Shown in pieces: positions 1,863 to 36,376 of a stretch of 64,000 bases of DNA. The DNA comes from Micromonospora sp. KC723. GTDB taxonomy: Bacteria; Actinomycetota; Actinomycetes; Mycobacteriales; Micromonosporaceae. The stretch is taken from positions 1-64,000 of the forward strand of contig NZ_SMKD01000001.1 in NCBI RefSeq assembly GCF_004348595.1. Reading direction: 5' to 3'. A program made the translations under genes and the position numbers. Numbering within the stretch: position 1 is the stretch's first letter; each line of letters opens with the position of its first letter. Under the pieces are notes generated by a model. The model made no database searches, was not told the DNA's origin, and was given only the letters and a program-made list of their open reading frames with translations.

Positions 1863-1905
1863 GTCAGCGGATTTTCAGTGGTCGATCAGCGGTGACCGGT
1901 ACGTT
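1863..1905 (+). promoter_or_regulatory. Predicted SARP-type promoter: three 11-bp phased NTCAG repeats plus -10
   Basis: GTCAG (1863), TTCAG (1874) and ATCAG (1885) are spaced exactly 11 bp apart. A 10-bp gap follows, then TACGTT (1900-1905) as a possible -10 element. The same arrangement lies at 8003-8045 before the other secreted-protein gene. SARP regulators bind 11-bp direct repeats placed just upstream of the -10, and a SARP gene lies between the two sites. The rest of the 388-bp gap between 1695 and 2084 shows no other feature. Confidence 0.6.
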
Positions 1906-2083
1906 CCGTCGGCCCAATGGCGGGCACGCCAGTTCCGCACCACCAACGCTCCGTCGACATCGGCACGGGCCGGGCCTTCTCGTCGAGGCAATGAGGTCCT
2001 GACGTCAGCCTTCCCCCGCGCGGACCCGACGGTGTCCGGTGCCGGTGCGCCCGCCTCGCCCACCCCCGGCAGCGAGGAGCAGC

Positions 2084-5029
2084 GTGAGACACATCCTGGC
2101 AATGGGTACAGCCGCGGTCACCCTGGCCGCGACCGTACTGGTCGGCGGCCCGTCACAGGCCACACCGCCCGACGGCGCCGCACGCCCCGTCGGCGCCCGA
2201 CCGGCGCCGTCGGCGCCCGAACCCACGCACGACACCGGCCAGTACGCGCCGCAGCGCGCGAAGCCGTACCAGCCGGTGACCCCGGACCGCAAGGCCAAGC
2301 GGCCGAAGGCGAGCCCGCCGGACTTCGGGCCGCACGAGAGGATCGTCCGCGCCTACCACCGTGGCCAGCTCTCCCTCGACGAGACCGTGCGGTACGGCAC
2401 GATGTCGATCGACTCCCCGGCTTCGGTGCCCGCGCGCCTGCGTCCCACCGGCCCCGTCAAGAACCCCACGACGTACCTGAAGTACCTGTCGATGCTGTCG
2501 GCCAGGGCGACGCCGGACGCGTCCCGCGCCATGACACCGACGATCACCGCGCCCGCACCCGCCGCCGCGGCCGCCGCGTACGACGACTGCGGGGCCGAGG
2601 ACTACGAGTACCTCGACGTCAACTACAAGTGCCGGGCCAGCGCCGGCGAGTTCCTCATCCTGTACAACGTCGCCGGCGGCGGCCAGCCCGGCATCCCGCC
2701 GGTGTACAACCCGAACGGGCGGCCGGAGGCCGTGCAGCACATGCTGAACTCGCTGTCGATCGCGGTCGGCGAGTACCGGGAGATGGGGTACCCCCTGCCG
2801 GTTCGCGCCGACAAGCCGTACGTGCTCGTGTACGGCGTGGACAAGCTCGGCCGGGCGGAGGTCACCGCGCCGATGGTGTTGCCGTTGGGCATGAACCAGC
2901 AGCCCACCATCCTGGTGCCGACCAGCGAGACCGAGTGGGACTACATGCCCCGGCACGAGCTGTTCCACGTCATGCAGTACCAGTACTGGGACCGCTCCGA
3001 CGTCGTCGCGGACTGGCTCTGGGACTTCGTGGGCGGCAAGGAGTTCGGCTCGATGAACTGGTGGATGGAAGCCACCGCGGAGTGGGCGGCCCACCAGACC
3101 TACGCCCGCACCGGCGGGTGGAGCCCGCTCGGCGAGGACGACCTCTACGCCCGCAACGTGCCCGACGTGCTGAGAAAGCCGGGGCAGGCACTGAACTCGT
3201 GGGGCGGGCTCGGTACCGGTTCACAGTACGGATCGTTCCTGCTTCCCGCGTATCTCACCGAGCGAACCGACGGCGCGTTCGTTCGGCACACCTGGGAGAG
3301 CGTCCGGGACCACGACCACCTGCCGATCGAAGCGATCCGTAACGCGGTCGCGGGCTACGGCATGAACTTCAAGCACATGCTGCTGGGCTACCACATCGCC
3401 AACTACCGGCTGGCGAAGGCGAACAATCCCTCCCTACCGACCCCGCCGGGCAGTTGGGACCTCTACGGCTACCAGGACTCCGACTCCACCCTGTGGCGGT
3501 CGAACCTGTACGGCTACACCGAGACCAACGACGACGGGTTGGGTGATGCCCGGCCGGCGCGCAAGAAGCACACCGTCGCGGCCGGTACGCACACCGAGTA
3601 CCAGGACATCCTGCGCAAGGGCGGCGCGGTCTACCACGACTTCTGGGCCAAGGCGCAGTCCGGCGACCCGAGCTGTGGTTACTGCTCCACCCTGCTGGTG
3701 GACACCACCAAGGACCCGAACCGCAGCTCCGCCATCATCATCTGGTCGCCCAAGGGCAGCCCCGGCTCACTGGCCGAGTACCCGACCATCGAGACGGTGA
3801 AGTACCCCGACGCCGGCGGGCTCATCACGGTGTCGAACTTCGCGTACCCGATGGTGGCCACGCTGGTGACCACCTGGACCGAGCTGGAGGTCCACTCCCA
3901 GGACGCCGCCGACTCCCCCAAGACGTTCAGCACCTACATGGAGACCACGCTGCCGCTGAAGGAACGGCAGTGCTCGCTGCGGGCCCCCAACGTCACCAGC
4001 CTGAGTCTGAACGTCGCCCCCGAGTCGACGTTCAACAACTACGCGGCCAGCACCCCGGACGGCTGGACCGGCGGCGACTCCACCTACTCGGTGAAGCTGC
4101 CGGACGGCCGCATCATCTGGCTGTTCTCCGACACCTGGCTCGGCCCACTCAACGCCAACGGCACCCGGCCAACGACGGCGCCACTGGTGAACAACACGTT
4201 CGTGGTGCAGAACGGCAACAACCTCACGACGTACCACGGCGGGACGGCCGGGGCGCCCAGACCCATCATGGGCCCCACCTCCACGACCACCTGGTTCTGG
4301 ATCGGTGACGGCCACCTCTCCGGCGGCCGGTTGCAGGCGGTGTACCAGGAGTACCTGAAGTTCGGCCCCGGGTCGTGGGACTTCCGGTTCAACCGCAACG
4401 TCGTGGCGGACTTCGACCTGAGCAACCTGCGCACCCCCGTCCGGGTCCGCGACCTGCCCTCGGCCAGTGGAGTGGCGTGGGGTTCGGCGCTGTTGCCGGC
4501 GAGCCGAAGCGGTGACGGCTACACCTACATCTACGGCGTCGACGACTCGCCGACGCACAAGCAGATGCGCATCGCGCGGGTCCAGGGCGACGACCTCGGC
4601 TCCGGCACCTGGCAGTACTACACGCCCTGGGGCTGGTCGTTCCGGGAGCAGAACGCCCGCAACACGCTCACCGGCATCGCGAACGAGTACAGCGTGACGC
4701 CGTGGAACGGCCAGTACCTGCTGCTCAGCCAGGACAGCACGGAGGCGTTCAGCGGCCGGATCATGGCGTACACGTCGTGCTCGCCGTTCGGGCCGTTCAC
4801 CAACCGCACCGAGGTCTACCGGATGCCCGAACCGGGCCCGTACGGCAGCTACTGGGACGGTGACATCATCTCGTACAACGCGCACGTCCACGCGTCACTG
4901 AGTTCGGGCAACACCTTCGTCGCCTCGTACAACGTGAACAGTATGGACACCAGGGTGAGCCCCGAAGGGGACCACTACCGGGACCCGGGGATCTACCGCC
5001 CGAGGTTCTTCCGGTTCACGCTCGGATAG
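2084..5029 (+). CDS. Secreted HExxH metallopeptidase-like protein with C-terminal DUF4185/DUF5005-like propeller
   Basis: About 981 residues. The GTG at 2084 follows GAGGAG and starts a signal peptide (hydrophobic core, then GGPSQA). A Pro/Ala-rich segment leads to a gluzincin-like zinc site: HELFH at about 291-295 and a candidate third ligand in WMEATAEW (Glu about 329). From about residue 640 the sequence changes to repeated aromatic/Gly motifs such as GRIIWLFSDTW and DGDIISYNAHVHA. These resemble the DUF4185/DUF5005 beta-propeller found in secreted glycan-active proteins. The fusion suggests an extracellular enzyme that acts on, or is targeted to, polysaccharide or glycoprotein. Substrate is unknown. 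The upstream promoter repeats suggest control by the neighbouring SARP gene. Confidence 0.7.
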   Translation: MRHILAMGTAAVTLAATVLVGGPSQATPPDGAARPVGARPAPSAPEPTHDTGQYAPQRAKPYQPVTPDRKAKRPKASPPDFGPHERIVRAYHRGQLSLDETVRYGTMSIDSPASVPARLRPTGPVKNPTTYLKYLSMLSARATPDASRAMTPTITAPAPAAAAAAYDDCGAEDYEYLDVNYKCRASAGEFLILYNVAGGGQPGIPPVYNPNGRPEAVQHMLNSLSIAVGEYREMGYPLPVRADKPYVLVYGVDKLGRAEVTAPMVLPLGMNQQPTILVPTSETEWDYMPRHELFHVMQYQYWDRSDVVADWLWDFVGGKEFGSMNWWMEATAEWAAHQTYARTGGWSPLGEDDLYARNVPDVLRKPGQALNSWGGLGTGSQYGSFLLPAYLTERTDGAFVRHTWESVRDHDHLPIEAIRNAVAGYGMNFKHMLLGYHIANYRLAKANNPSLPTPPGSWDLYGYQDSDSTLWRSNLYGYTETNDDGLGDARPARKKHTVAAGTHTEYQDILRKGGAVYHDFWAKAQSGDPSCGYCSTLLVDTTKDPNRSSAIIIWSPKGSPGSLAEYPTIETVKYPDAGGLITVSNFAYPMVATLVTTWTELEVHSQDAADSPKTFSTYMETTLPLKERQCSLRAPNVTSLSLNVAPESTFNNYAASTPDGWTGGDSTYSVKLPDGRIIWLFSDTWLGPLNANGTRPTTAPLVNNTFVVQNGNNLTTYHGGTAGAPRPIMGPTSTTTWFWIGDGHLSGGRLQAVYQEYLKFGPGSWDFRFNRNVVADFDLSNLRTPVRVRDLPSASGVAWGSALLPASRSGDGYTYIYGVDDSPTHKQMRIARVQGDDLGSGTWQYYTPWGWSFREQNARNTLTGIANEYSVTPWNGQYLLLSQDSTEAFSGRIMAYTSCSPFGPFTNRTEVYRMPEPGPYGSYWDGDIISYNAHVHASLSSGNTFVASYNVNSMDTRVSPEGDHYRDPGIYRPRFFRFTLG

Positions 5030-5044
5030 CTCGGCCGGCGGTGT

Positions 5045-5067
5045 GGCGGCGCGGGACCCGCGCCGCC
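5045..5067. terminator. GC-rich hairpin between convergent genes
   Basis: GGCGGCGCGGG and CCCGCGCCGCC form an 11-bp inverted repeat around a single A; in RNA the innermost pairs would open into the loop. It lies 16 bp after the metallopeptidase stop and before the SARP stop, and probably terminates from both sides. There is no T tract, as is common in actinomycetes. Confidence 0.6.
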
Positions 5068-5090
5068 GCACCGCCGCCGTGGCCGACGGG

Positions 5091-7919
5091 TCATCCCGGC
5101 CCAGTCTGCCGGGCCGGAGGCCGGGGTGCCTCCTCCGACACCCGGGCGGATCCCTGCCGCGACAACCGCCGCATCCGCTCGGCCAGCGCGGCGGCCGCGG
5201 CGGCGTCCAGGCCGTGCAGCAGGGCCAGCGCCCGTCGCCACGCTCGCCCGCACTCGGCCACCTCGCCGGCGGCGAGCCGGCTCTCCCCGAGGCTGATCAG
5301 GGTGCGCGCCGAACCCATCCGGTCGCCGCACTCCTGCCACATCTCCAGGCTGTGCTCGTAGCACCGGATGGCCAGGGAATACGCGCCGCGCTGGTGGTGG
5401 ATGTACCCCATGCTGTCCCATCCGGCCGCCTCGCCGTGGCGGTCCGCGCTCGCCCGGAGCAACGCCAGCCCTGCCCGGCAGTGCACCAGCGCCTCACCGT
5501 ACTCGCCGAGCTGGGCGTGCTCCCAGCCCAGCGCGGCGAGGGTCCGGGCCTCGCCGACGTCATCGCCCTCGGCGCGGAACAGGTCCAGGGCGAGCTTCAG
5601 ATGGCCGACCGCCTCCCGGTGGCGGTTCTGCCGGTCGCGCATCCTGGCGACGTCCAGTTGCACGTGCGCCTGCCCGGCCCGGTCGTCGACCGCCCGGTAG
5701 CGGTCGAGCGCGTACCGGTAGTTCGTTTCGGCGTCGTCGTGCCGACCGAGCCGGTCGTAGCCGTCGGCCAGGTACCGGTACGCCACCGCCTCTGCCGCGG
5801 TGTCCCCGACCTTCGTCGCCATCGCGACCGCCGTGCGCTGGGCCCGCACCTGGTCGTGGCGGTGCCACTGCCGGCTCAGCCACGGCTTGATCGCCCAGGC
5901 GAGCTGCCAGGCGTGGGCGGCGAACCCCTCGGCCGCGGCGCGGTCGATCGCGGCCAGGACCGCCACGCGTTCGGCGGCGAACCACGCGAGGGCCTGCTTC
6001 CGGTCGGTCGGTTCGTCGACGTGCACGTCGTCGACGCGGGGCTCGAACCGGACCGGCGGGCGGTTCGGCTCCACGAGCGTGGCGACGTGCCCGGCGCTGT
6101 GCAGGTAGTGGTCGAGGAGCCGGCGTAGCGCCCGGCGGCGGTCCTCCGCCGGCTCGGTGGCCCGCGCCAGTTCTTCCGCGTACGCCCGGAGCAGGTCGTG
6201 GAACAGGTACCGGCCCGGGGTGTGCTCCTCGATCAGGTGTGCCCGGATCAGCTCGCCGATCAGTGCCCGCGCCCGCGACACCGGCAGCCCCGTGAGGTTG
6301 GCCGCCGCGGACAGGCTGATGTCGGGGCCGATGTGCAGGCCGAGCCACCGGAACACCCGGGCGGTCGCCGGCCCGAGCGACCGGTAGGACCAGGAGAAGA
6401 CGGTCCGCACGTCGGTGGCGGAGTCACCGTTGGCCAGGGCGTCGAGGCGGCCACGGCTCTCCCGCAACTCGGCCGCGAGCGAGGCCAGCGTCAGCCGGGG
6501 ATTGGTGGCGGCGCGGGCGGCGACCACGGCCAGCGCCAGATGCAGCCGCCCGCATGATTCGACGATCTCCGCGGCTGCCCGCGATTCGCCGGTCACCCGC
6601 TCGCCACCGAGGCGCTTGGCGAGGAAGGCTCGCGCCTCCACCGCGGAGGGGCGCCCGAGCGGAAGCGGGGTTGCGCCGTGTCCGGCCACCAGTCCGGCCA
6701 GCTGGTCACGGCTGTTCACCAGGACGAAGCAACCCGGCGCTCCCGGCAGCAGCGGGCGGACCTGCGCCGCGTCCCGTGCGTTGTCCAGCACGATCAGGAC
6801 GCGTCGCTGCGCGACGACCGTGCGGAAGAGGGTGGACTGCTCGTCCACGCTCGCCGGAAGTCGTTTTGCCGGGACGCCCAGGCCGGCCAACAGCCGGCGG
6901 AGGGCCTCCGCCGGATCCATCGCGGCGTCCCTGGTGTCGAAGCCGCGCAGGTTCACGAAGAGCTGCCCGTCCGGGAAGCGATCGACGACCCGGTGGGCCC
7001 AGTGCACGGTGAGTGCCGTCTTGCCCGCTCCGGGAGCGCCACTGACCACGGCGATCGCGACACCGGCGTGCCGCGACTCCAGCAGCGCGTCGAGCGCGGC
7101 CAGCTCGGCGGTACGACCGGTGAAGTGGGGTACCTCCGTGGGCAACTGCCGGGAGCAGGGAGTGTCCCGGACCGGCGGCGTCACCGGGAGATCGTCTGCC
7201 AGCACCGCCTGATGGACGCGGTGTAGTTCGTCGCTCGGCTCGATGCCGAGATCCCTGGTCAGCCGGAGCCGGGTTTCCCGGAACACCTCCAGAGCTTCGG
7301 TACGCCTGCCCGCGCGATGCAGCGCGGTCATCCACAGCGCTACCGCGTTCTCCCGCATCGGGTGCTCGGCGACGACAGCGGCCAGCCGGGCCACCGCGTC
7401 GGCGGTCCGCCCCGCGCTCAGCTCGGCCCGGGACAGCTCCTCGATGGCGGCGACCCGCTCCTGCTCGAGCGTCTGCCCGAGGGTCGCCGGCAGCCACTCG
7501 CCGGCGACGTCGGCGAACGCCGGACCGCGCCACAGGCCGACGGCGGAGCGCAGCAGTTCGTCGGGCGAGGTGAGACCGTTCTGCGCCTGCTCGACCAGCC
7601 CCCTGAACCGGTGCAGGTCCACCGATTCACGCGGCACGGTCAGCTGGTAGCCGTGACCCGCCGTCGCCAACTCCACTCCCGGGATGCCCCGGACGAGCCG
7701 ACGGAGTCGGGACACGTGCCCCTGGATGGCGTTGCGCGCGGAGGCGGGCGGACCGTCGCCCCACAGCGCGGTGACCATCTGGCCGAGGGGCACCACGTGC
7801 CCCGGGGCCAGCAGGAGCATCGCCAGGATGGTCCGCTGCTGCGCGTTCGTCGGACGTAGCTGTTGCCCGTCCCGCCACGCGCCGACCGGCCCCAGCACCC
7901 GGAACTCGACACCGTCCAC
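5091..7919 (-). CDS. SARP-family regulator (AfsR-like: winged helix, BTAD, NB-ARC, TPR)
   Basis: About 942 residues. Domains in order: OmpR-like winged-helix DNA-binding domain (about 1-95, FRVLGPV at the start), bacterial transcriptional activation domain (about 100-245), NB-ARC ATPase with Walker A SGAPGAGKTAL near 290 and LIVLDNARD as Walker B, and C-terminal tetratricopeptide-type helical repeats (about 700-930). This is the architecture of AfsR-type Streptomyces antibiotic regulatory proteins, which activate promoters carrying 11-bp direct repeats. I place the start at the GTG 7919, just after GGGGGA; an in-frame GTG at 7970 has a weaker ribosome site. Two promoters with triple 11-bp repeats flank the gene, so its targets are probably the adjacent secreted-protein genes. 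Confidence 0.88.
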   Translation of the reverse strand: MDGVEFRVLGPVGAWRDGQQLRPTNAQQRTILAMLLLAPGHVVPLGQMVTALWGDGPPASARNAIQGHVSRLRRLVRGIPGVELATAGHGYQLTVPRESVDLHRFRGLVEQAQNGLTSPDELLRSAVGLWRGPAFADVAGEWLPATLGQTLEQERVAAIEELSRAELSAGRTADAVARLAAVVAEHPMRENAVALWMTALHRAGRRTEALEVFRETRLRLTRDLGIEPSDELHRVHQAVLADDLPVTPPVRDTPCSRQLPTEVPHFTGRTAELAALDALLESRHAGVAIAVVSGAPGAGKTALTVHWAHRVVDRFPDGQLFVNLRGFDTRDAAMDPAEALRRLLAGLGVPAKRLPASVDEQSTLFRTVVAQRRVLIVLDNARDAAQVRPLLPGAPGCFVLVNSRDQLAGLVAGHGATPLPLGRPSAVEARAFLAKRLGGERVTGESRAAAEIVESCGRLHLALAVVAARAATNPRLTLASLAAELRESRGRLDALANGDSATDVRTVFSWSYRSLGPATARVFRWLGLHIGPDISLSAAANLTGLPVSRARALIGELIRAHLIEEHTPGRYLFHDLLRAYAEELARATEPAEDRRRALRRLLDHYLHSAGHVATLVEPNRPPVRFEPRVDDVHVDEPTDRKQALAWFAAERVAVLAAIDRAAAEGFAAHAWQLAWAIKPWLSRQWHRHDQVRAQRTAVAMATKVGDTAAEAVAYRYLADGYDRLGRHDDAETNYRYALDRYRAVDDRAGQAHVQLDVARMRDRQNRHREAVGHLKLALDLFRAEGDDVGEARTLAALGWEHAQLGEYGEALVHCRAGLALLRASADRHGEAAGWDSMGYIHHQRGAYSLAIRCYEHSLEMWQECGDRMGSARTLISLGESRLAAGEVAECGRAWRRALALLHGLDAAAAAALAERMRRLSRQGSARVSEEAPRPPARQTGPG

Positions 7920-8002
7920 CGTCCCCCGCTCCCGAGCAGACCGCCTCGAGCGGCTCAGCTTACTGTCCACACCCGATTCGGCGTTGGCCCGACCGCGTCA
8001 TG

Positions 8003-8045
8003 TTCAGCGGGATTTCAGGGCCCTTTCACGGGTCGCCGGTACGGT
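8003..8045 (+). promoter_or_regulatory. Predicted SARP-type promoter: three 11-bp phased repeats plus -10
   Basis: TTCAG (8003), TTCAG (8014) and TTCAC (8025) are exactly 11 bp apart. A 10-bp gap follows, then TACGGT (8040-8045). The following bases (CCGGTACGGTTCCG) almost repeat those at the 1863-1905 site. It lies between the divergent SARP gene and the small secreted-protein gene, 42 bp before the latter's ATG. Confidence 0.65.
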
Positions 8046-8086: not shown

Positions 8087-8548
8087 ATGACTTTCCGTAC
8101 CCTTCGTCGTGCCGGCGTGCTGGCCGCCTGCCTCACCACCCTGGGTGCCGCCAGTCTGGTCACCGCCGGTCCCGCCCAGGCCGCGGTCTCCTGCTCGGGC
8201 ACCGTGACCTTCAGCAAGACGGTGCCGAGCAGCAACCCCGTCGGCGAGCTGGTCATCTACTACAACAGCAGCAACGGTGGCACCAACAGCGCCTGCTTCT
8301 ACCACCGGGGGGCCACCTACGGGAACTCCGCGTTGACCGGGGTGCAGATCGCGCGGTGCACGCAGCGCTCGGGTGAGGGACGGCCCTGCGACTTCGCCGC
8401 GATCTCCGCCCCGGACGAGGGCACCTACGCCTACCACGCCGGGCCGGTCGGCGTCACCGGCACCGCCAACTACTGCGTTTCGGCGAAGGGCTGGATCGCG
8501 TGGGGCGGCCGGGTCCACTCCGTGGACAGCCTCACCCAGGGTTGCTGA
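8087..8548 (+). CDS. Small secreted protein, similar in pattern to spore-associated protein A
   Basis: 153 residues; the ATG at 8087 follows GGGAGC. It begins with a clear signal peptide (RRAGVLAACLTTLGA, cleavage after AGPAQA). The mature part is about 120 residues with six cysteines (likely disulphides) and motifs such as IYYNSSNGG, YHAGPV and WIAWGG. That layout resembles the spore-associated protein A family of Streptomyces; I recognise the pattern, not a proven homologue. It is probably exported and folded outside the cell. The upstream triple repeat places it under the adjacent SARP regulator. Confidence 0.65.
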   Translation: MTFRTLRRAGVLAACLTTLGAASLVTAGPAQAAVSCSGTVTFSKTVPSSNPVGELVIYYNSSNGGTNSACFYHRGATYGNSALTGVQIARCTQRSGEGRPCDFAAISAPDEGTYAYHAGPVGVTGTANYCVSAKGWIAWGGRVHSVDSLTQGC

Positions 8549-23888: not shown

Positions 23889-25613
23889 TCAGATGCCGGC
23901 GGCGGTGTCGACCCGCTCGGGCGCGGCCGAGGCGAGGGGGACGGCCCCCTCCGGGGTGGCACGAGCGATCATCCGACCGTCGCCATGCCAGGCCTCCGGA
24001 CCGGCGTACTTCTCGCGAAGCTGACGCTTGAGCACCTTGCCGGTGTAACCGACCGGCAGGTCGGCCTCGCCACGGGCGACCTCGAGCAGGGTCACCGCAG
24101 GCTGGCCGGCGGCGACGAGTTGCTTGTTGATCCGGTTGAGCAGTTCCGGGGCCTCGGCGTTCGAGGCGTCGGAATCCGGACGAACCACCGCCACGGCGAC
24201 CGGCTCGCCGTCGTATCGCGCCGCGACCACCGCGCATTCAACGATCTCCGGCAACTCGGCGAGGATGACCTCCTCCATCAGGACGGAGTAACCGGTGCCA
24301 GCTGCGGTGGGTACCACGTCGACTGCCCGGTCTACCTGGTAGAACAGGTTCTCCTCGTCCTGGAACCCGACGTCTCCCGTGAGCCAGTAGCCAGCCAGAC
24401 GGCTACGGACCGTCGCGTCCGAGTCGTTCCAGTAGCCGGGGGTCAGGCTGGGACTGCGCACCCCCAGGAGCCCGTACTCGCCGACATCGGCCCGGGTGCC
24501 GTCCTCGCGCAGCACCGCGAACTCGGCCAGCGGATCCGGGGTGCCCATGCAGCGATCCCGCCGGGGCGTGTCGAGGGTACGCATCCGCACCATCAACCCC
24601 CAGCCCAGCTCGGTGCTGCCGAAGCGATCATAGAAGGCGGCTCGCGGCAGGTGCGGGCTGCGCAGGCTCAGGATGCGGCGCATGTGCCCCTCGTGCACCG
24701 CGTCGGCCATGCTGACCCAGCCGTCGACCGAGTCGACCGAGCCGGGCGCCAGGCGCTCCGCCGCCAGATCCGCATAGACATGAGCGAACGCGAGCACCAT
24801 CGTCGGCTGGTACCTGGCGATGGCGGCGGCCAGTTCGGGCCCGGTCGGATCGAACAACGGCACCAGCGGTGTGCCGGCCAGGATCGCGTACATGCTGTAA
24901 CCGATGAAGCCGGTGTGCGACTGCGGCTGGGCGGCCAGCATCAGCGAACCAGGCTGCTCGGTGAAGTGCGCCAGCCGGTACCGCGGACCGGCGAAGCTGC
25001 CGGCGTGCGTCTGGATCACTGGTTTGGGCTGCCCCGTGGTCCCCGAGGAGTGCAGGATCACCACCGGGTCCTCCGGCGCGTGCCGGAAGTAGGCATTCTC
25101 GGGCAGGGCCGCGGCGGGCGGCGCGGGCAGTTCCTCGGCGAGCTGGACCCAGCGCAGGCCGGACAGCGCGTCACCGAGCCGCTCGCTGCGCGCCCGGTCG
25201 GTGTACATCCCGACCGGGGCGGTCCGGCGCAGGTGCTCGGCTGCGACGGGCCGCGACATCCGGCTGTTCATCAGGACCGGGATCGCGCCGATCTGCGACA
25301 GCGCGTAGAAGTGCACCGCGTAGGCGAAGCTGTCCTCCAGGAAGACGGCGACCCGGTCCCGCGGACGCACGCCCTGCTCCCGATACCACACCGACCAGCT
25401 CTGCGCGAGCCGATCGAGGTCGCGCAGGCTCAGTTCGTCACGCGCCTGCCCCGTGGAGTCGACCACCGGCCGGCCGAGCCGCAGGAACGGGACGTCTGGC
25501 CGAGGGTGTACCGCCATCGCGTGACGCAGGACGTTGCCACCACCGAGTTGCTCGTTTCGCGCCAGGGTGAGCCGCAGGTCGGCTGGGAGGAGGGCATCAG
25601 CAAGCAGCGACAT
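23889..25613 (-). CDS. AMP-dependent acyl-CoA ligase / synthetase
   Basis: 574 residues, ANL superfamily. The P-loop VILHSSGTTGQPKPV is near 190, the adenylate-binding segment FYDRFGSTELGWG near 325, YWLTGDVGFQDE near 405, and the catalytic Lys motif GYTGKVLKRQLREKY near 535. It should activate a carboxylic acid as adenylate and load it on CoA or a carrier. The start overlaps the oxoamine synthase gene by 17 bp. As the last gene of a three-gene operon in the 4-aminophenylalanine cluster, it could supply the acyl-CoA that the synthase condenses with an amino acid. The acid is unknown. Confidence 0.85.
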   Translation of the reverse strand: MSLLADALLPADLRLTLARNEQLGGGNVLRHAMAVHPRPDVPFLRLGRPVVDSTGQARDELSLRDLDRLAQSWSVWYREQGVRPRDRVAVFLEDSFAYAVHFYALSQIGAIPVLMNSRMSRPVAAEHLRRTAPVGMYTDRARSERLGDALSGLRWVQLAEELPAPPAAALPENAYFRHAPEDPVVILHSSGTTGQPKPVIQTHAGSFAGPRYRLAHFTEQPGSLMLAAQPQSHTGFIGYSMYAILAGTPLVPLFDPTGPELAAAIARYQPTMVLAFAHVYADLAAERLAPGSVDSVDGWVSMADAVHEGHMRRILSLRSPHLPRAAFYDRFGSTELGWGLMVRMRTLDTPRRDRCMGTPDPLAEFAVLREDGTRADVGEYGLLGVRSPSLTPGYWNDSDATVRSRLAGYWLTGDVGFQDEENLFYQVDRAVDVVPTAAGTGYSVLMEEVILAELPEIVECAVVAARYDGEPVAVAVVRPDSDASNAEAPELLNRINKQLVAAGQPAVTLLEVARGEADLPVGYTGKVLKRQLREKYAGPEAWHGDGRMIARATPEGAVPLASAAPERVDTAAGI

Positions 25614-26910
25614 CGCTCACCTTCTCGGAGTCAGAAGAGGGGGAAGAAGACACCGGGCCCGACTCGGACCTGTCCTGGCCCAGCACCCGCGCCGCGAGGG
25701 CCAACTGGTCGGGCTCGTGCAGGCTGGACAACGCGAAGCGCAGGAGGCCGGTCCCGGCGGCCACGGTGGGATAGAACGCGGGGAGGATCAGGATCCCGGC
25801 GTCCCGGAGCCGCTCGGCGAGGGCGAAGGCGCTGTCCTCGTCGTCACAGTGCACACCCCGGATGGGGCACCGCAGGCCAGCGTTGACCAGGGTGCCCCCG
25901 GTCAACGCGTCGAAGCTGGCGGCGTTGGCCCAGAGCTGTTCCTGCCGGCGTGCGACCTCGCCGCTGAGGTGCAGCCGCGCCGCGGCCACCGTCGCGGCGA
26001 GCATCGGCACCGGCACCGACTGGCCGAAGACCAGGGGGTTGGCGAACTTGCGCAGCACCAGCATGTCCGCGTCGCCGCTGACCAGGACGAACCCGCCGAT
26101 CCCGCCGAACGCCTTGGACAACGAGCCGGTGATCAGCACTCCCGGCGGCAGCGCGCCGCCGAAGGCCTCGAACGCGTAGCCGGCTCCGTGCCGGCCGGTG
26201 ATCGAGGTGCCGTGGGCGTCGTCGACGTAGAGAATCCCGCCGTAGGGGGCCACCACCGAGTGCAGGTGGCGAACGTCCACCAGGCCGCCCATCGACCCGA
26301 CCCCGTCGACCAGCAGCACCGGCGTCCGGTCGGCGACGCTGGCCTCCCGCAGCTCGTGCGCCAGCCCGTCCGGGTCCCCGAGTTCGAACCGGCGTACCGG
26401 CCCGAGCTGTTCGAGCATGCCCCTGAGGACCTGCATGGACGCGTGCGCGGTCTTCTCCACCAAGAACGTCACGCCCCCCGGGGCGATCGGGTAGCCGGGC
26501 AGCGCGCCCGCGCCGAGCAGCGGGAGGGTGCCGAGATGGGTGCTGCTGACCGTGCCGAACACGACCGCCCGGCTGCCCGGGTAGATCTCCCCCAACAGTT
26601 GCTCCAGTTCGGCGAGATACACCGGTCGGGCGCGGTTACGCGCGATGGAGAAGTGCACCCCGAAGCGCCGCAGCGCCTCGTGCGCCGCGTCGACCAGTTC
26701 GGGATGCTGCTCCAGCCCGAGGTACGAGCAGGACACGAATTCGATGGCCGAGCTGCCGTCGGCGAGGGTCACCCGCTTGCCGGCACGTTCGGCGATGACG
26801 TGCCCGGTCAGTCCGCGGTCGAAGGCGCGGTCCAGCACGTCGGAGGTCTTGCTGATCCGCGCAGCCACCCAGTTTGTGGGCTCGGCCGCCGTGACGCTAG
26901 ATTGCCCCAC
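25597..26910 (-). CDS. Alpha-oxoamine synthase family PLP enzyme (KBL/BioF-like)
   Basis: 437 residues from a GTG at 26910 preceded by GGGAGCAGGA. Fold-type I PLP enzyme: VDDAHGTS holds the cofactor-binding Asp and His, and TGSLSKAFGG holds the Schiff-base Lys near 255. Conserved segments such as FVSCSYLGLEQHP and EKTAHASM place it with 2-amino-3-ketobutyrate ligase, AONS and CqsA. These enzymes condense an amino acid with an acyl-CoA, with decarboxylation, to an alpha-aminoketone. Neighbouring genes encode two acid-activating enzymes and a 4-aminophenylalanine pathway, so this is the likely bond-forming step of the cluster. It lies 19 bp after the PaaK-like gene. Confidence 0.85.
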   Translation of the reverse strand: MGQSSVTAAEPTNWVAARISKTSDVLDRAFDRGLTGHVIAERAGKRVTLADGSSAIEFVSCSYLGLEQHPELVDAAHEALRRFGVHFSIARNRARPVYLAELEQLLGEIYPGSRAVVFGTVSSTHLGTLPLLGAGALPGYPIAPGGVTFLVEKTAHASMQVLRGMLEQLGPVRRFELGDPDGLAHELREASVADRTPVLLVDGVGSMGGLVDVRHLHSVVAPYGGILYVDDAHGTSITGRHGAGYAFEAFGGALPPGVLITGSLSKAFGGIGGFVLVSGDADMLVLRKFANPLVFGQSVPVPMLAATVAAARLHLSGEVARRQEQLWANAASFDALTGGTLVNAGLRCPIRGVHCDDEDSAFALAERLRDAGILILPAFYPTVAAGTGLLRFALSSLHEPDQLALAARVLGQDRSESGPVSSSPSSDSEKVSDVAAC

Positions 26911-26929
26911 TCCTGCTCCCTTCGGTCGT

Positions 26930-28267
26930 TCAGAACCGCTGGTAGAAGACGGGCACCTTGCCCCGCTCGTTCTGGGCGAAGGCGCCCAGGTCGACGTACT
27001 CGACGGTGACGCTCGCGCTCCGTCGCCCGGTGAGGACGGCGTTCAGTTGGAAGTGCGCCCGAGCCTGCTCCAGGAAGGCCTCGGGTGTCGCGCCGGCCGG
27101 GACCGACGGAGCCAGCAGCAGCCGTACGGCGTACCGGGGGAAGTCCCACAGGATCTGTAGTTGACACTGACTGATGTCGCTGACACCCAGCGGTCGCAGT
27201 GCGGCGAGCAGCTGATCCGCCGAGATGGTCCAGACGTCGATGGTGGCGGACTGACCGGCGCGTCCCATGAGGGTGAGAAGCCGGGCCGCGCTGCCGCAGG
27301 CGCACGGGGCCGTCTCGATGCGTGCCCGGTCGCCGATCCGGTAGCGGAACAGCGCCATCCCGGTGTCCTTCAACGGGGTGATCAACAGCTCGCCGACCTC
27401 ACCGTCGGGCACCGGACGCCCGGTCTCCTGGTCGACCACCTCCACGATGACCGCGTCCTCGTGGATGTGGTGGGTGGCGCCCGACTGCCGTGCGCACTGG
27501 TAGCCGATCGGGCCGGTCTCGTTGGTGGAGTACGCGACCGATCGCACGGTGACGTCGGGCAGCGCCTCGGCAACCAGCCGTTCCCGCTCCTGGCCGATCG
27601 CCTCGCCCAGGTAGAGGAAGTGACGCAGCGACCGGAGCTGGTCGGCGGGGGTGCAGGTGAGCACCTCCGTGCCGTAGGCCGGGCTGGCGACGATGGTGTC
27701 CACCTGGTGTGCGGCGATGACGGCGGCGGTCTCCTCCGGGCGGGCGATGCTGCCCAGCGGGAAGGCCAGGGCACCGAGCCGCTCGGCGAGCCCCAGCACG
27801 AACATGAACGCACCGTTGAGGTTGCCGGGGTACATGCAGTTGGCCAGCCGCCGGGGCGGATCAGGCAACAGGGCCCGCAGGCCCCGCATGCCGAGAGTGT
27901 CGACCTGGTGCTTGAACTCCCACGAGTGGAACATGGTCTTGGCCTCGCCGGCGGTGCCGCTGGACCGCAGCACCATGCCCCCGTCCGGCCCGAGGAGAAA
28001 CTCGGTCGACCGGGGCGGCGAGCCGGCTGCCAGCGCCGCCGGGGTCAGGATCGGCATTCGGGGCAGGTCCGCCGGCGTACGCACCTCGGCCAGTTCCGGG
28101 TACCGGGCGCTGACCGCCTCGACCGCACGGGCGGCTGCCACGGTACGGGCGAAGTTCGCCGCCCGGAGGGCCTCGACCTCCTCCGCGCCCAGCACGTCCA
28201 GGTCGGATGCGAGGCGGACCCCCGCCGAGGCTGCCGGGACCGCCTCCGGAACAACCGTCGTGACCAT
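26930..28267 (-). CDS. PaaK-like phenylacetate-CoA ligase family enzyme
   Basis: 445 residues from the ATG at 28267, which follows GGGGGAGC; the in-frame extension to 28354 has no ribosome site. It has the glycine-rich adenylation loop MVLRSSGTAGEAKT near 110, AYSTNETGPIG near 250, and RYRIGDRARIE followed by PCACGS, resembling the zinc site of PaaK enzymes. Such enzymes activate aromatic acids (phenylacetate, hydroxyanthranilate, phenazine precursors). It is first in the minus-strand operon with the oxoamine synthase and acyl ligase, and divergent from the tyrosine-hydroxylase-like gene. An aromatic acid substrate is likely; its identity is unknown. Confidence 0.8.
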   Translation of the reverse strand: MVTTVVPEAVPAASAGVRLASDLDVLGAEEVEALRAANFARTVAAARAVEAVSARYPELAEVRTPADLPRMPILTPAALAAGSPPRSTEFLLGPDGGMVLRSSGTAGEAKTMFHSWEFKHQVDTLGMRGLRALLPDPPRRLANCMYPGNLNGAFMFVLGLAERLGALAFPLGSIARPEETAAVIAAHQVDTIVASPAYGTEVLTCTPADQLRSLRHFLYLGEAIGQERERLVAEALPDVTVRSVAYSTNETGPIGYQCARQSGATHHIHEDAVIVEVVDQETGRPVPDGEVGELLITPLKDTGMALFRYRIGDRARIETAPCACGSAARLLTLMGRAGQSATIDVWTISADQLLAALRPLGVSDISQCQLQILWDFPRYAVRLLLAPSVPAGATPEAFLEQARAHFQLNAVLTGRRSASVTVEYVDLGAFAQNERGKVPVFYQRF

Positions 28268-28772
28268 TCTGCTCCCCCGTAATCCCCGAACCGTCGGTGT
28301 CATCGGGTCTGCCCAGGCCCGACGTCGGACCAACAGTAATATGACGCCCGCCATGGATGACGAAAATCAGTGAGCGGATCAACCAGCGGCTCCGGAATTG
28401 CCGAGGGGCGGGCGGAGCCATCTGTGTATAACGGGGCCCCTGGCGTCGAGTCAAGGCCTTCGCGATCATTCCCACCGGCGCGCGATCATCGGAATTGATT
28501 GGCTTTCCGACCAATCAAACAACCGCACCACGACTGCCTGCGGCGGCACCGGGCAGGCGGCCCCACCAACCCTTGAGGTCTTGGCGCGCCCGCCGGCCCT
28601 GCTGTACGCTCCCGATGGTTTGCACCGAAATTGCCGCGAGTGCCGTCCGATACGACCCGGCGCACATTATTCGAGTGGTCTTATTGGTGACAGATTAACG
28701 CATGCTGATGTGCGTGCTCTTCTCGTACGTCCTGCGCGCACCGCTGTCACCAGTCGAGGAGGGACGCTGACC
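28268..28772. promoter_or_regulatory. Divergent promoter region with an 8-bp inverted repeat
   Basis: A 505-bp gap between the ligase operon (leftwards) and the hydroxylase-like gene (rightwards), lower in GC than its surroundings. TTGATTGG (28495-28502) and CCAATCAA (28511-28518) form a perfect inverted repeat with an 8-bp spacer, a likely operator. CGCGATCAT also occurs twice, 20 bp apart (28461 and 28481). No gene is evident. Confidence 0.55.
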
Positions 28773-29696
28773 GTGACGCTGCCCACCACCGCCGAACGGC
28801 GTCTGCCGGAATGGGAGTTCGGTGGCTACCCGTACGGCCTGATGCCGTTGACGCTGCCCGCGCCCGGACTGCGGTGGCTCTGCGGGGACATGAGTGGGGT
28901 GCTGCGTCAGCAGTCGCTGCTGGATGCCGACGCCGACGCTCCGCTGGATCCCGAGCCGGATTCGACCGACCAACTCCTGTGGTTCCGCTGGATCATCGGC
29001 AACCAGGCGTCGTCGGCGCTGTGGCAACTGCTCGACGACGAGTTGGGCCTGGTGCTCGGCGAGGAGCTGCCGACCGCCTGCCGTAACGCCGCGGCGCTGC
29101 TCGACGGCTACTCGGCACTGCTGATCTACGCCGGGGTGCCCACCCGGGAGGCCTACGCCCGGCTGATCCGCCCGGCGATGGCACTCCAGCACCGCTCCTT
29201 CTCCGGCCGCTGGGCTGTTGACTACGTCCCGGTCATGGCGAAGCTGCAGGCGCTGCGGGCGGCCTACCGGAGCCGACCGGCCCCGGCGGAGGTCGCCCGG
29301 ACGATCGAGGCGAGCCGGACCAACCACCGGGTGCATGTGGCCGTTGCCGCGAAACTCGTGCCGAGCGACGACTCGCTCCTGCGGGCGAATGACGGCCTGG
29401 CCCTGGGCAAGGCCACCGATGAGAACGTGGCTCTCTACGACGCCTTCTACAGCACCGCCCGGGCGGTGACCTCCCGGGAGCGGGTGGTGGAACAACTTCT
29501 CCAGCGGGTTCGCGCCATCAAGCGTGATCTACGCGTCAACGGTTTGTATCCTGACGGCTCCCCCAGTCAGGACGAACGGCCGGCGCACCTGTGGGAGACC
29601 AAGGTCGAGAACGTCGAGGTACGCGTTGAGGAACTGCTACACAAAGCCGCCACGGCGGCGGTCGCCGCACTGCGCAGCCACCCGGCATCGAGCTGA
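28773..29696 (+). CDS. Heme-dependent L-tyrosine 3-hydroxylase-like protein (LmbB2/Orf13 type)
   Basis: 307 residues from a GTG at 28773 preceded by GAGGAGGGA. From memory, the overall pattern (EWEFGGYPYGLMPLTLPAPG at the start, LWFRWIIGNQ near 69-78, RPAMALQHRSFSG near 133-145, and a C-terminal VRAIKRDLRVNGLYP) resembles the heme-histidyl tyrosine hydroxylases of lincomycin, anthramycin and related clusters. His140, His185 and His188 are candidate heme ligands. These enzymes use H2O2 or O2 to add a 3-hydroxyl to tyrosine. No extradiol dioxygenase is nearby, so the proline-forming branch of those pathways is absent. Here 4-aminophenylalanine or a related aromatic is a plausible substrate. Confidence 0.6.
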   Translation: MTLPTTAERRLPEWEFGGYPYGLMPLTLPAPGLRWLCGDMSGVLRQQSLLDADADAPLDPEPDSTDQLLWFRWIIGNQASSALWQLLDDELGLVLGEELPTACRNAAALLDGYSALLIYAGVPTREAYARLIRPAMALQHRSFSGRWAVDYVPVMAKLQALRAAYRSRPAPAEVARTIEASRTNHRVHVAVAAKLVPSDDSLLRANDGLALGKATDENVALYDAFYSTARAVTSRERVVEQLLQRVRAIKRDLRVNGLYPDGSPSQDERPAHLWETKVENVEVRVEELLHKAATAAVAALRSHPASS

Positions 29697-29789
29697 CGGG
29701 AGCTCACGACTGTCGGCGCCGCGCGTCGGACCACTCGACGCAGACGTGCGGAAATTCCACAAGTGTGCGGCGAGGAAAGGATTCGGCCG

Positions 29790-31070
29790 GTGAAGATTGG
29801 CATAGGCAAGTCTCTGGGCGCGTACCGGGAACTGCTGAAGATCCGCGGTGCTCCCGGCTTCGTCATCGCCGGCCTGATCGGCCGGTTTCCCATCTCGATG
29901 CGGGCGCTGGCCGCCATGCTCCTGGTGCTTGCCGCCACCGGCTCGTACGCCACCGCCGGCGCCATCGGCTCCGTGGTGACCCTCTCCAACGCGTTCGCGG
30001 TGCCGGCGCTGGGCCGCCTGTCCGACCGGCGCGGCCAACGCTGGCTGATCTTCACCGCGTTGATCGTCCATGCCGGCGGCCTGATCGCACTGGTCCTGTT
30101 GACCCGGCTGGGCGCCCCGCTGTGGACGCTCTTCGCCGCCGCCGCGGTGTTCGGCGCGTCCGGGCTACCCCTGGGCTCGCTGGTACGTGCCCGGTGGACG
30201 GCCCTGGTCGGCGGCACACCCCGGCAGTCCACGGCGTACGCCCTGGAGGCGTTCATCGACGACATCATCTACCTGACCGGGCCGGTCATCGTCACGCTGC
30301 TCGCGGGATACCTCGCGCCGACCGCCAGCATGCTGGTCATCCTCGGCATGGTGCTGGTCGGCTGGACCGCGCTCGCGCTGCAGCGTTCCACGCAACCCGA
30401 ACTGGCACCGGTCCCCGCCGGCCCGCGCAGGGGCGCGATCAGCGAGCCGGGGCTCCGGGCGCTGCTGCTGGTCTGCCTGGCGCTCGGCGCCTGGCTCGGG
30501 GCCAGCAACGTGGCTCTCGTCGCCTTCGCCGACGAGCAGGGCAACCGGAGTCTGGGCGGCATCCTGATCGGCCTGACGATCCTCGGCGGCATGATCGCCG
30601 GCCTGGTCTACGGCGGCATCACGTGGAACATCCCCCTGGTCCGGCGCCTGCTGGGCACGGCGGTGCTGCTGGGTGTGGGTACGCTGCCCCTGATCTTCGC
30701 GGCCTCTTTCTGGTGGATGGTGCCGTTCGCGGTGATCGCGGGCCTTGCCATCACGCCCACCTTGATCGGTATCTACTCCGTGCTGTCCAACGTCGTACCG
30801 AAGTCCTCGGTCACTGAGGGGTTCGCCTGGATCGCCTCGTCGATCGCGGTCGGCAGCTCCGCCGGCGTGGCCGTCTCCGGCTGGCTGGTCGAGCGCTTCG
30901 ACAGCCGTAGTGCCCTGATCTTCATGGCCGCCGCCGGGCTCCTGTCCCCCCTGGTGGTCGCTGTCAACGAGCGTCTGCTCGGCCGTACCCCGCACGCGGA
31001 GGTCGTGGCGACGGGTGCGCCTGACCGGGTGCCGGTGAAGGAAACGGCGGTCTCCCCCTCGGGGGAGTGA
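29790..31070 (+). CDS. MFS transporter
   Basis: 426 residues from a GTG at 29790 with AGGAAAGGA upstream. About twelve hydrophobic segments span the sequence, with LGRLSDRRGQRWLIF near 70-85 matching the MFS loop 2-3 motif. Length and layout suit drug/proton antiporters. Placed between the hydroxylase-like gene and the chorismate-branch genes, it probably exports the product and gives self-protection. The substrate is inferred from location only. Confidence 0.85.
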   Translation: MKIGIGKSLGAYRELLKIRGAPGFVIAGLIGRFPISMRALAAMLLVLAATGSYATAGAIGSVVTLSNAFAVPALGRLSDRRGQRWLIFTALIVHAGGLIALVLLTRLGAPLWTLFAAAAVFGASGLPLGSLVRARWTALVGGTPRQSTAYALEAFIDDIIYLTGPVIVTLLAGYLAPTASMLVILGMVLVGWTALALQRSTQPELAPVPAGPRRGAISEPGLRALLLVCLALGAWLGASNVALVAFADEQGNRSLGGILIGLTILGGMIAGLVYGGITWNIPLVRRLLGTAVLLGVGTLPLIFAASFWWMVPFAVIAGLAITPTLIGIYSVLSNVVPKSSVTEGFAWIASSIAVGSSAGVAVSGWLVERFDSRSALIFMAAAGLLSPLVVAVNERLLGRTPHAEVVATGAPDRVPVKETAVSPSGE

Positions 31071-31075
31071 GAGGT

Positions 31076-31134
31076 GGCCCACCCCGAGGGTTGGTGGCGG
31101 GCTCAGCCGGCCCGAGCCACCATCGGGGTGGGCC
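31076..31134. terminator. Large nested inverted repeat between convergent genes
   Basis: Outer arms GGCCCACCCCGA (31076-31087) and TCGGGGTGGGCC (31123-31134); inner arms TGGTGGC (31092-31098) and GCCACCA (31116-31122). It begins 5 bp after the transporter stop and overlaps the last codons of the regulator gene on the other strand. It probably ends transcription from both sides. Confidence 0.7.
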
Positions 31135-32485
31135 CGAAGTGCAACGGAAACGTCTGCTGCGCGGCCATGTCGGCGGCGAAGAGCCGGAACAGGACGGGCA
31201 TCCGGTAGCTGCCGGGCACTGGCGTGCCGATCAGCAGACCGACGTCGACCAGGGACTCCAACAGCTCCTCGGCGCCGTGCCACGACAGCCGCATCCTGCT
31301 GGCCAGTGTTTTGGCGTCGGGTTCGCACCCCTGCGTCGCCGAGATCACCCGCCAGGCGGAGGCGGGCAGCGGATCCAGGGTTGCGTACGTGTCACGCAGC
31401 CTTCTGCCCAGTGCCATCTCCCCACAGTCGAACTGCGCCAACCTGCGGGACCTGTCCCGGAGCTGCTCGACGGCGTAGCCGAGACTCCAGCCCGGCCGCA
31501 TCGCGACACAGCCGGCAGCCGTCCAGAGTGCCAGCGGCAGGTGGTCGCAGAGCTCGGCGAGCTGACAGGCCGCCTCGTACTCGGCGGCCACCTGCTCCGG
31601 CCCGACGACCGCTCCGATCAGCGTGAGCGACTGATCCAGCGGCAGGGCGTCGAGGGCGAGGCGTTCCACGCCGTCCAGCCCGGCCAGCCGGTCGCGACTG
31701 GTGACCAGGACCTGGCTGCCGGACGATCCGGCCAGCAGCGGGCGGACCTGCGCCTCGTCGACGGCGTTGTCGAGCAGCACCAGCACCCGGCGGTCGGCCA
31801 GTAGTGACCGGTACAGGGCGGACCGGTGCTGCTCGCTGGTGTTGATCTGGTCGCGGTGGCAGCCGAGGGTCTGGAGGAAGTGCGTGACGATGTCGCGCGC
31901 GTCAATCTGCTGGGACAGATCGGCATACAGCACCCCGTCCCGGAAGTGCGCACCGTGCTGCTGGCCCCAGCGGATGGCCAGGGCGCTCTTGCCGACACCG
32001 ACTGGGCCGCTGATCATCAAGGGTGTCCGGTTGCCGCCGCCGAGGACGAAGCCGCTCAGTCTGGCCAGCTCGGCGCCCCGCCCCGCGAAGTGCCGTGGCC
32101 CGACCGGTAGCTGGGCCGGGATCAGCGGCGCGGCCTCCGCAACCCGCCGGTGTTCGGAGGCGATGTCCTCGCCGACGGCGAACGCCTCGGGCGTGCGCCG
32201 CTGGCGGGATCGGGAGCGTCGTTCCCACCCGGCAACCTCCCGCCAGCGTCGGGCCCATTCTTCCCGGTCGCCACCGCATGCCTCCACCAGCGCGAGGGTG
32301 ACCTGAAGGGTGGGCAGGCTGAAGCCGCTGGCCGCGGCGGACAGCACCGAGGGCGAGAAGTTCGCCCGCCCGGACAGCTTCCGGTACGACGGATTGCCGG
32401 CTTGTTCCCTGAGTCGCCTCAGATCGAGGGCGAACGCCGCGATCGGTCCACCCGCAGGATCCACCGGCCGCTCCGGTCGGCCCAT
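31103..32485 (-). CDS. XRE-type HTH plus NB-ARC ATPase regulator
   Basis: 460 residues. The ATG at 32485 follows GGGGGA. An N-terminal helix-turn-helix (about 20-75: LRRLREQAGNPSYRKLSGRANFSPSVLSAAASG) precedes an NB-ARC module with Walker A SGPVGVGKSALAIRW near 170, Walker B RVLVLLDNAVDEAQVRPLL near 240, and LVTSRDRLAGL. It lacks the long TPR tail of full-size relatives. Such proteins resemble AfsR-type pathway regulators with the DNA-binding domain exchanged. It lies inside the aminophenylalanine cluster, divergent from papB, so it is the probable cluster-situated regulator. Confidence 0.8.
   Translation of the reverse strand: MGRPERPVDPAGGPIAAFALDLRRLREQAGNPSYRKLSGRANFSPSVLSAAASGFSLPTLQVTLALVEACGGDREEWARRWREVAGWERRSRSRQRRTPEAFAVGEDIASEHRRVAEAAPLIPAQLPVGPRHFAGRGAELARLSGFVLGGGNRTPLMISGPVGVGKSALAIRWGQQHGAHFRDGVLYADLSQQIDARDIVTHFLQTLGCHRDQINTSEQHRSALYRSLLADRRVLVLLDNAVDEAQVRPLLAGSSGSQVLVTSRDRLAGLDGVERLALDALPLDQSLTLIGAVVGPEQVAAEYEAACQLAELCDHLPLALWTAAGCVAMRPGWSLGYAVEQLRDRSRRLAQFDCGEMALGRRLRDTYATLDPLPASAWRVISATQGCEPDAKTLASRMRLSWHGAEELLESLVDVGLLIGTPVPGSYRMPVLFRLFAADMAAQQTFPLHFGPTPMVARAG

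Positions 32486-36376
<3,891 letters not shown>

Follow-up and report, generated by a model that had tools for sequence, protein, structure and literature searches.

The AfsR-type SARP encoded in the window (the whole stretch of DNA analysed, 64,000 nt) very probably activates directly the two secreted-protein genes that flank it, at 2084 and 8087, as judged from sequence comparison. An earlier note on this DNA had proposed such a local SARP regulon of secreted proteins, and the proposal is supported by conservation of the predicted footprints in four species, promoter geometry of the AfsR type, mostly conserved DNA-contact residues, exact sites exclusive to the locus, and a natural swap of regulator and repeats. 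Coordinates of all features are given in Table 1.

Table 1. Features of the SARP locus, in window coordinates
Feature	Coordinates	Strand	Remarks
Site A, three 11-bp NTCAG repeats	1863..1895 (starts 1863, 1874, 1885)	+	cores invariant in four orthologous loci
Site A -10 hexamer TACGTT	1900..1905	+	26 nt 3' of TTCAGT (repeat 2, 1874)
Target 1, 981-aa secreted protein	2084..5029	+	HELFH motif, ATAEW downstream, C-terminal DUF5005/DUF4185-like hydrolase domain
AfsR-type SARP (OmpR-like DNA-binding domain, BTAD, NB-ARC/AAA, TPR)	5091..7919	-	~942 aa from GTG 7919
Likely SARP-gene -10, TAAGCT on the minus strand	7957..7962	-	predicted from alignment, TARGCT in all four loci
Site B, three 11-bp NTCA(G/C) repeats	8003..8035 (starts 8003, 8014, 8025)	+	cores invariant in four orthologous loci
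Site B -10 hexamer TACGGT	8040..8045	+	26 nt 3' of TTCAGG (repeat 2, 8014)
Target 2, 153-aa secreted protein	8087..8548	+	predicted all-beta fold after signal peptide

Site A, upstream of the 2084 gene, reads GTCAGCGGATT TTCAGTGGTCG ATCAGCGGTGA ccgg TACGTT (1863-1905), and site B, upstream of the 8087 gene, reads TTCAGCGGGAT TTCAGGGCCCT TTCACGGGTCG ccgg TACGGT (8003-8045), with the -10 box (TACGNT) at an equal offset from the repeats in both. The period, number and spacing of the repeats are as the earlier note described them, and the SARP gene does lie between the two sites, on the minus strand. The note also called the NTCAG triples identical; the triple 11-bp layout holds, but the six repeats are merely similar, and the NTCAG type fits the first five but not repeat 3 of site B, which is TTCAC. 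Direct repeats of 11-bp period close to a -10 box and overlapping the -35 position mark both sites as predicted SARP operators. NTCAG repeats are absent elsewhere in the 64-kb window, and RNA folding in the 2084-gene leader is unexceptional (z = 0.59).

The genome-wide search that the earlier note had suggested, run with the pattern TCAGN7TCAGN7TCAN11TACNNT, returns two exact matches, sites A and B alone, both at the SARP locus, against ~0.0008 expected from base composition. One-mismatch matches number zero and two-mismatch matches three, versus one for a reversed control pattern. Each triple by itself is modestly unusual (p ~0.01-0.02 versus shuffles of its own intergenic region), so the weight rests on the pairing of the sites and on their persistence before both genes in three additional species. 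One two-mismatch array, GTCAGCGCGCG ATCAGCGCGAT TTCATCGGTGG ctgc CAGCCT at G000:C132:33027-33068 (L173, minus strand), lies shortly upstream of a 373-aa secreted-protein gene, with CAGCCT in the place of the -10 box, and the same array occurs in a related genome (G142:C122, L174). No SARP was found within ~7 kb of either copy. The window SARP may act on this array in trans, and, since it precedes a secreted-protein gene, the regulon is perhaps not strictly local.

The window SARP is composed of an N-terminal OmpR-like DNA-binding domain (PF00486, 30.7 bits, cut-off 26.2) followed by a BTAD (PF03704, 114.5 bits, cut-off 22.1), which places it in the SARP family. A C-terminal NB-ARC/AAA and TPR region and a near full-length match to the AfsR chains 8k60 and 8jke place it among the large, AfsR-type members. 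It scores 545.1 bits against the AfsR equivalog NF053617, below the curated cut-off of 1430, and by these profile comparisons the protein is AfsR-type, yet not AfsR itself. The longest ORF of the gene begins at 7970; the start probably lies at GTG 7919, since relatives do not preserve the reading frame over 7920-7970. AfsR DNA-contact residues Q48, W74, P79, S91, R92 and R94 are kept and K95 is replaced by R. AfsR T88, which makes a specific base contact, corresponds to a glycine (G84), a substitution that, on alignment, counts against direct activation.

The large target has an HExxH region that is likely metalloprotease-like; its AlphaFold model is unusable (mean pLDDT 31.6). The 153-aa target yields a good predicted model beyond the signal peptide, with no Pfam family assigned and no confident PDB match to the model. 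The SARP gene is not situated in an antibiotic cluster, its neighbours being the two secreted-protein genes and unrelated genes. Further along the window, 23889-36376 encodes two AMP-binding enzymes, an aminotransferase, an MFS transporter, a chorismate mutase, a fused anthranilate/ADC-synthase-like enzyme and a prephenate dehydrogenase, a combination reminiscent of p-aminophenylalanine pathways and possibly a secondary-metabolite cluster. No NTCAG array is present in this group.

Three related genomes, G142, G141 (Micromonospora sp. KC213) and G131 (M. sonchi), carry the orthologous locus with the same three genes in unchanged order, at 84-93% identity for the large target and 79-85% for the SARP. 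Each contains exactly two exact matches to the pattern, both at this locus. Across the four loci, all core bases are invariant (12/12 at site A and 11/11 at site B, 23/23 together), as are the -10 bases (TAnnnT; 6/6 over both sites), compared with 47 of 160 bases (29%) in the two 80-nt upstream flanks. The pattern, which the earlier note expected upstream of orthologues in related strains, is thus present in all three species (3/3) that have the window's type of SARP, and it is absent upstream of the target orthologue where the SARP differs or is missing. The 153-aa protein has more distant homologues at 16 loci (54-64% identity); these have no such adjoining SARP, and the array is absent there.

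A search of 160 Micromonospora genomes with a 230-aa fragment of the 981-aa target recovered an orthologue in 14, distributed over four arrangements. Four genomes combine a window-type SARP with the triple NTCAG array; four have a divergent 1000-aa AfsR-like SARP and a triple GCAAG array scoring 13-14 of 15; four have a CCGATCRTTAACCG double repeat, three of them with a divergent 403-442-aa SARP and the fourth ending at a contig edge; and two have neither a SARP nor any of the three repeat arrays. SARP type and repeat type go together without exception among the 14 target orthologues, which represent few lineages rather than 14 independent events. This natural swap, read from sequence, supports the neighbouring SARP as the reader of the repeats. 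In Micromonospora sp. C28SCA-DRY-2 (L055:4938-6419 and 6406-7734) a different, 443-aa SARP likewise lies between two secreted-protein genes, and one of these encodes the orthologue of the 981-aa target.

The arrangement was surveyed over 76 loci around SARPs resembling the window SARP and 20 NB-ARC-TPR loci (L153-L172) selected as a SARP-free control, four of which (L166, L169, L170 and L171) proved to be SARPs and were counted with the SARP group. Genes were called by a hexamer model, Sec signal peptides were scored by a heuristic, and regulators were grouped at 60% identity before neighbours were counted. Where a divergent upstream neighbour exists, it is a signal-peptide gene in 13 of 21 SARP groups, versus 17 of 239 (7%) background divergently arranged genes (Fisher p = 5e-9), percentages that are approximate, as resemblance to the window SARP guided the sampling and an ad hoc signal-peptide score was used. 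The remaining NB-ARC-TPR regulators (L153-L165, L167, L168, L172) are XRE-type, HaaT-like proteins with no SARP domain and lie mostly divergent to a secreted-protein gene; a divergent signal-peptide gene is present in 4/5 of their groups. An 11-bp triple repeat (p<=0.05) occurs in 10/18 divergent signal-peptide intergenic regions beside SARPs but in 0/12 beside XRE-type regulators.

Repeat sequence follows the recognition helix, a correspondence judged by eye with no fitted model. Helix QxHVS[RY]LR accompanies TTCAG-type repeats (window, L080-L085, L090), Q[AV][LCM][VI]SR accompanies GGCAAG or GCAAG repeats (L089, L166, L170, M. tulbaghiae), and RTYVRGLR accompanies GTTGTGCGG-type repeats (L101-L106). 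In the first set, the paralogous SARPs of L080-L085 and L090 have their TTCAG-type repeats beside secreted-protein genes. The repeats at L166, L096 and L089 have a different sequence, and these loci were accordingly dropped as additional NTCAG candidates. At L175:3503-7339, in G142, a second AfsR-like SARP precedes a triple NTCAG array, with a small secreted-protein gene beyond the array (ATG at 6894); the SARP gene is also divergent from a further secreted-protein gene.

AfsR and the afsS promoter of Streptomyces coelicolor provide the closest comparison, combining a large SARP with NB-ARC and TPR domains and 11-bp direct repeats with a TTCAG core (PMC10936776). There the upstream repeat spans -40 to -30 and the downstream repeat -29 to -19, and the -35 element, TTCAGC at -38 to -33, falls within the upstream repeat (PMC10936776). 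Taking the afsS -10 at the usual -12 to -7, the distance from TTCAGC to the -10 is 26 nt, equal to that from repeat 2 to the -10 at both window sites; most AfsR DNA-contact residues are likewise common to both regulators. The window sites differ from the afsS promoter in having three repeats rather than two and a good TACGNT -10 rather than CACTGT, and the window SARP differs from AfsR in its targets, adjoining secreted-protein genes instead of afsS, as well as in the T88 position and the equivalog score given above.

Other three-repeat operators resemble the window sites in layout. The PimR/PimM operator of Streptomyces natalensis consists of three direct heptamer repeats that keep an 11-bp frame with their 4-bp spacers, and PimR, like the window protein, carries an N-terminal SARP domain and regulates a local gene; it differs in its CGGCAAG repeats located upstream of the -35, its control of a regulator of an antifungal cluster, and its LAL-type C-terminal half (PMC5930380). 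GGCAAG-type triples also precede secreted-protein genes at the Micromonospora SARP loci L089, L166 and L170. The sites of DnrI, ActII-ORF4, VlmI and FdmR1 likewise comprise three repeats, which overlap the -35 region of the promoters they control, but these regulators are cluster-situated and control antibiotic biosynthesis genes (PMC10972967).

By analogy with the solved AfsR-RNA polymerase-afsS complex, SARP protomers would line up next to each other, each on one 11-bp NTCAG repeat. In terms of the afs box, repeat 2 would stand for the upstream repeat and repeat 3 for the downstream one, a match that would make repeat 2 overlap the -35 position. The bound SARP would then bring sigma region 4 to a promoter with a poor -35 and a good TACGNT -10, while repeat 1 may accommodate a third protomer, as at other SARP operators with three repeats (PMC10972967, PMC5930380). 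The NB-ARC and TPR domains presumably gate this activity in response to a signal.

AfsR-like SARPs are numerous, with eight BTAD matches in the genome, so another SARP, such as a global AfsR orthologue, could bind sites A and B instead of the neighbour. The resemblance of the repeats to the afsS promoter with its TTCAGC -35 (PMC10936776) fits such a reader, as does a site of the same geometry before ftsH in three Micromonospora genomes (L176:3779 (-), L177:5780 (+), L178:6552 (+)), where two NTCAG repeats 11 bp apart are followed by a TAC -10 at the AfsR distance (GTTCAGCGGGCTCTCAGTCAGTCCGACTACGGT) and no SARP gene is nearby. Set against this are the confinement of exact triple sites to the SARP locus in four genomes and the switch in repeat type upstream of one and the same target gene where a SARP of a different type adjoins it; we consider a distant SARP an unlikely reader of these sites.

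Binding by a non-SARP factor, or an ordinary sigma-70-type promoter with chance repeats, would accord with the modest significance of each triple alone and with -10 boxes typical of housekeeping promoters. It is made very improbable by the invariance of the three repeat cores at both promoters in four species while the flanks diverge, and by the restriction of triple repeats to SARPs in the comparison with XRE-type regulators. The two promoters also have GTCAGCGG-like stretches and CCGGTACG around the -10 in common, as would follow if one had been copied by duplication and their likeness reflected recent shared origin rather than regulation. In the three other species, however, sites A and B diverge outside the NTCA cores and the -10 while the cores persist in both, leaving duplication barely credible as the explanation. 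Direct activation of both flanking genes by the SARP between them is the reading we favour.

The proposed mechanism belongs to a known family; what is unusual is the class of targets, together with the evidence for a common arrangement. To our knowledge, almost every described role of SARPs is the activation of antibiotic clusters, and the literature covered by our search, with subscription journals outside it, contained no report of SARPs controlling adjacent secreted proteins. AfsR-type genes serve as signposts in genome mining. On balance, with only a slight lean in its favour, the survey suggests that the Micromonospora NB-ARC-TPR regulators, AfsR-type SARPs and XRE-type proteins together, constitute a large, scattered class of private modules, each activating one or two adjacent secreted-protein genes, the SARP ones through their own 11-bp repeat sequence, so that many could coexist in a genome without cross-talk. 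If many AfsR-type SARPs do control adjacent secreted proteins, their annotation and their use as cluster beacons would need care. The matched sets of recognition helices and repeat sequences also offer a starting point for understanding DNA-site choice by SARPs.
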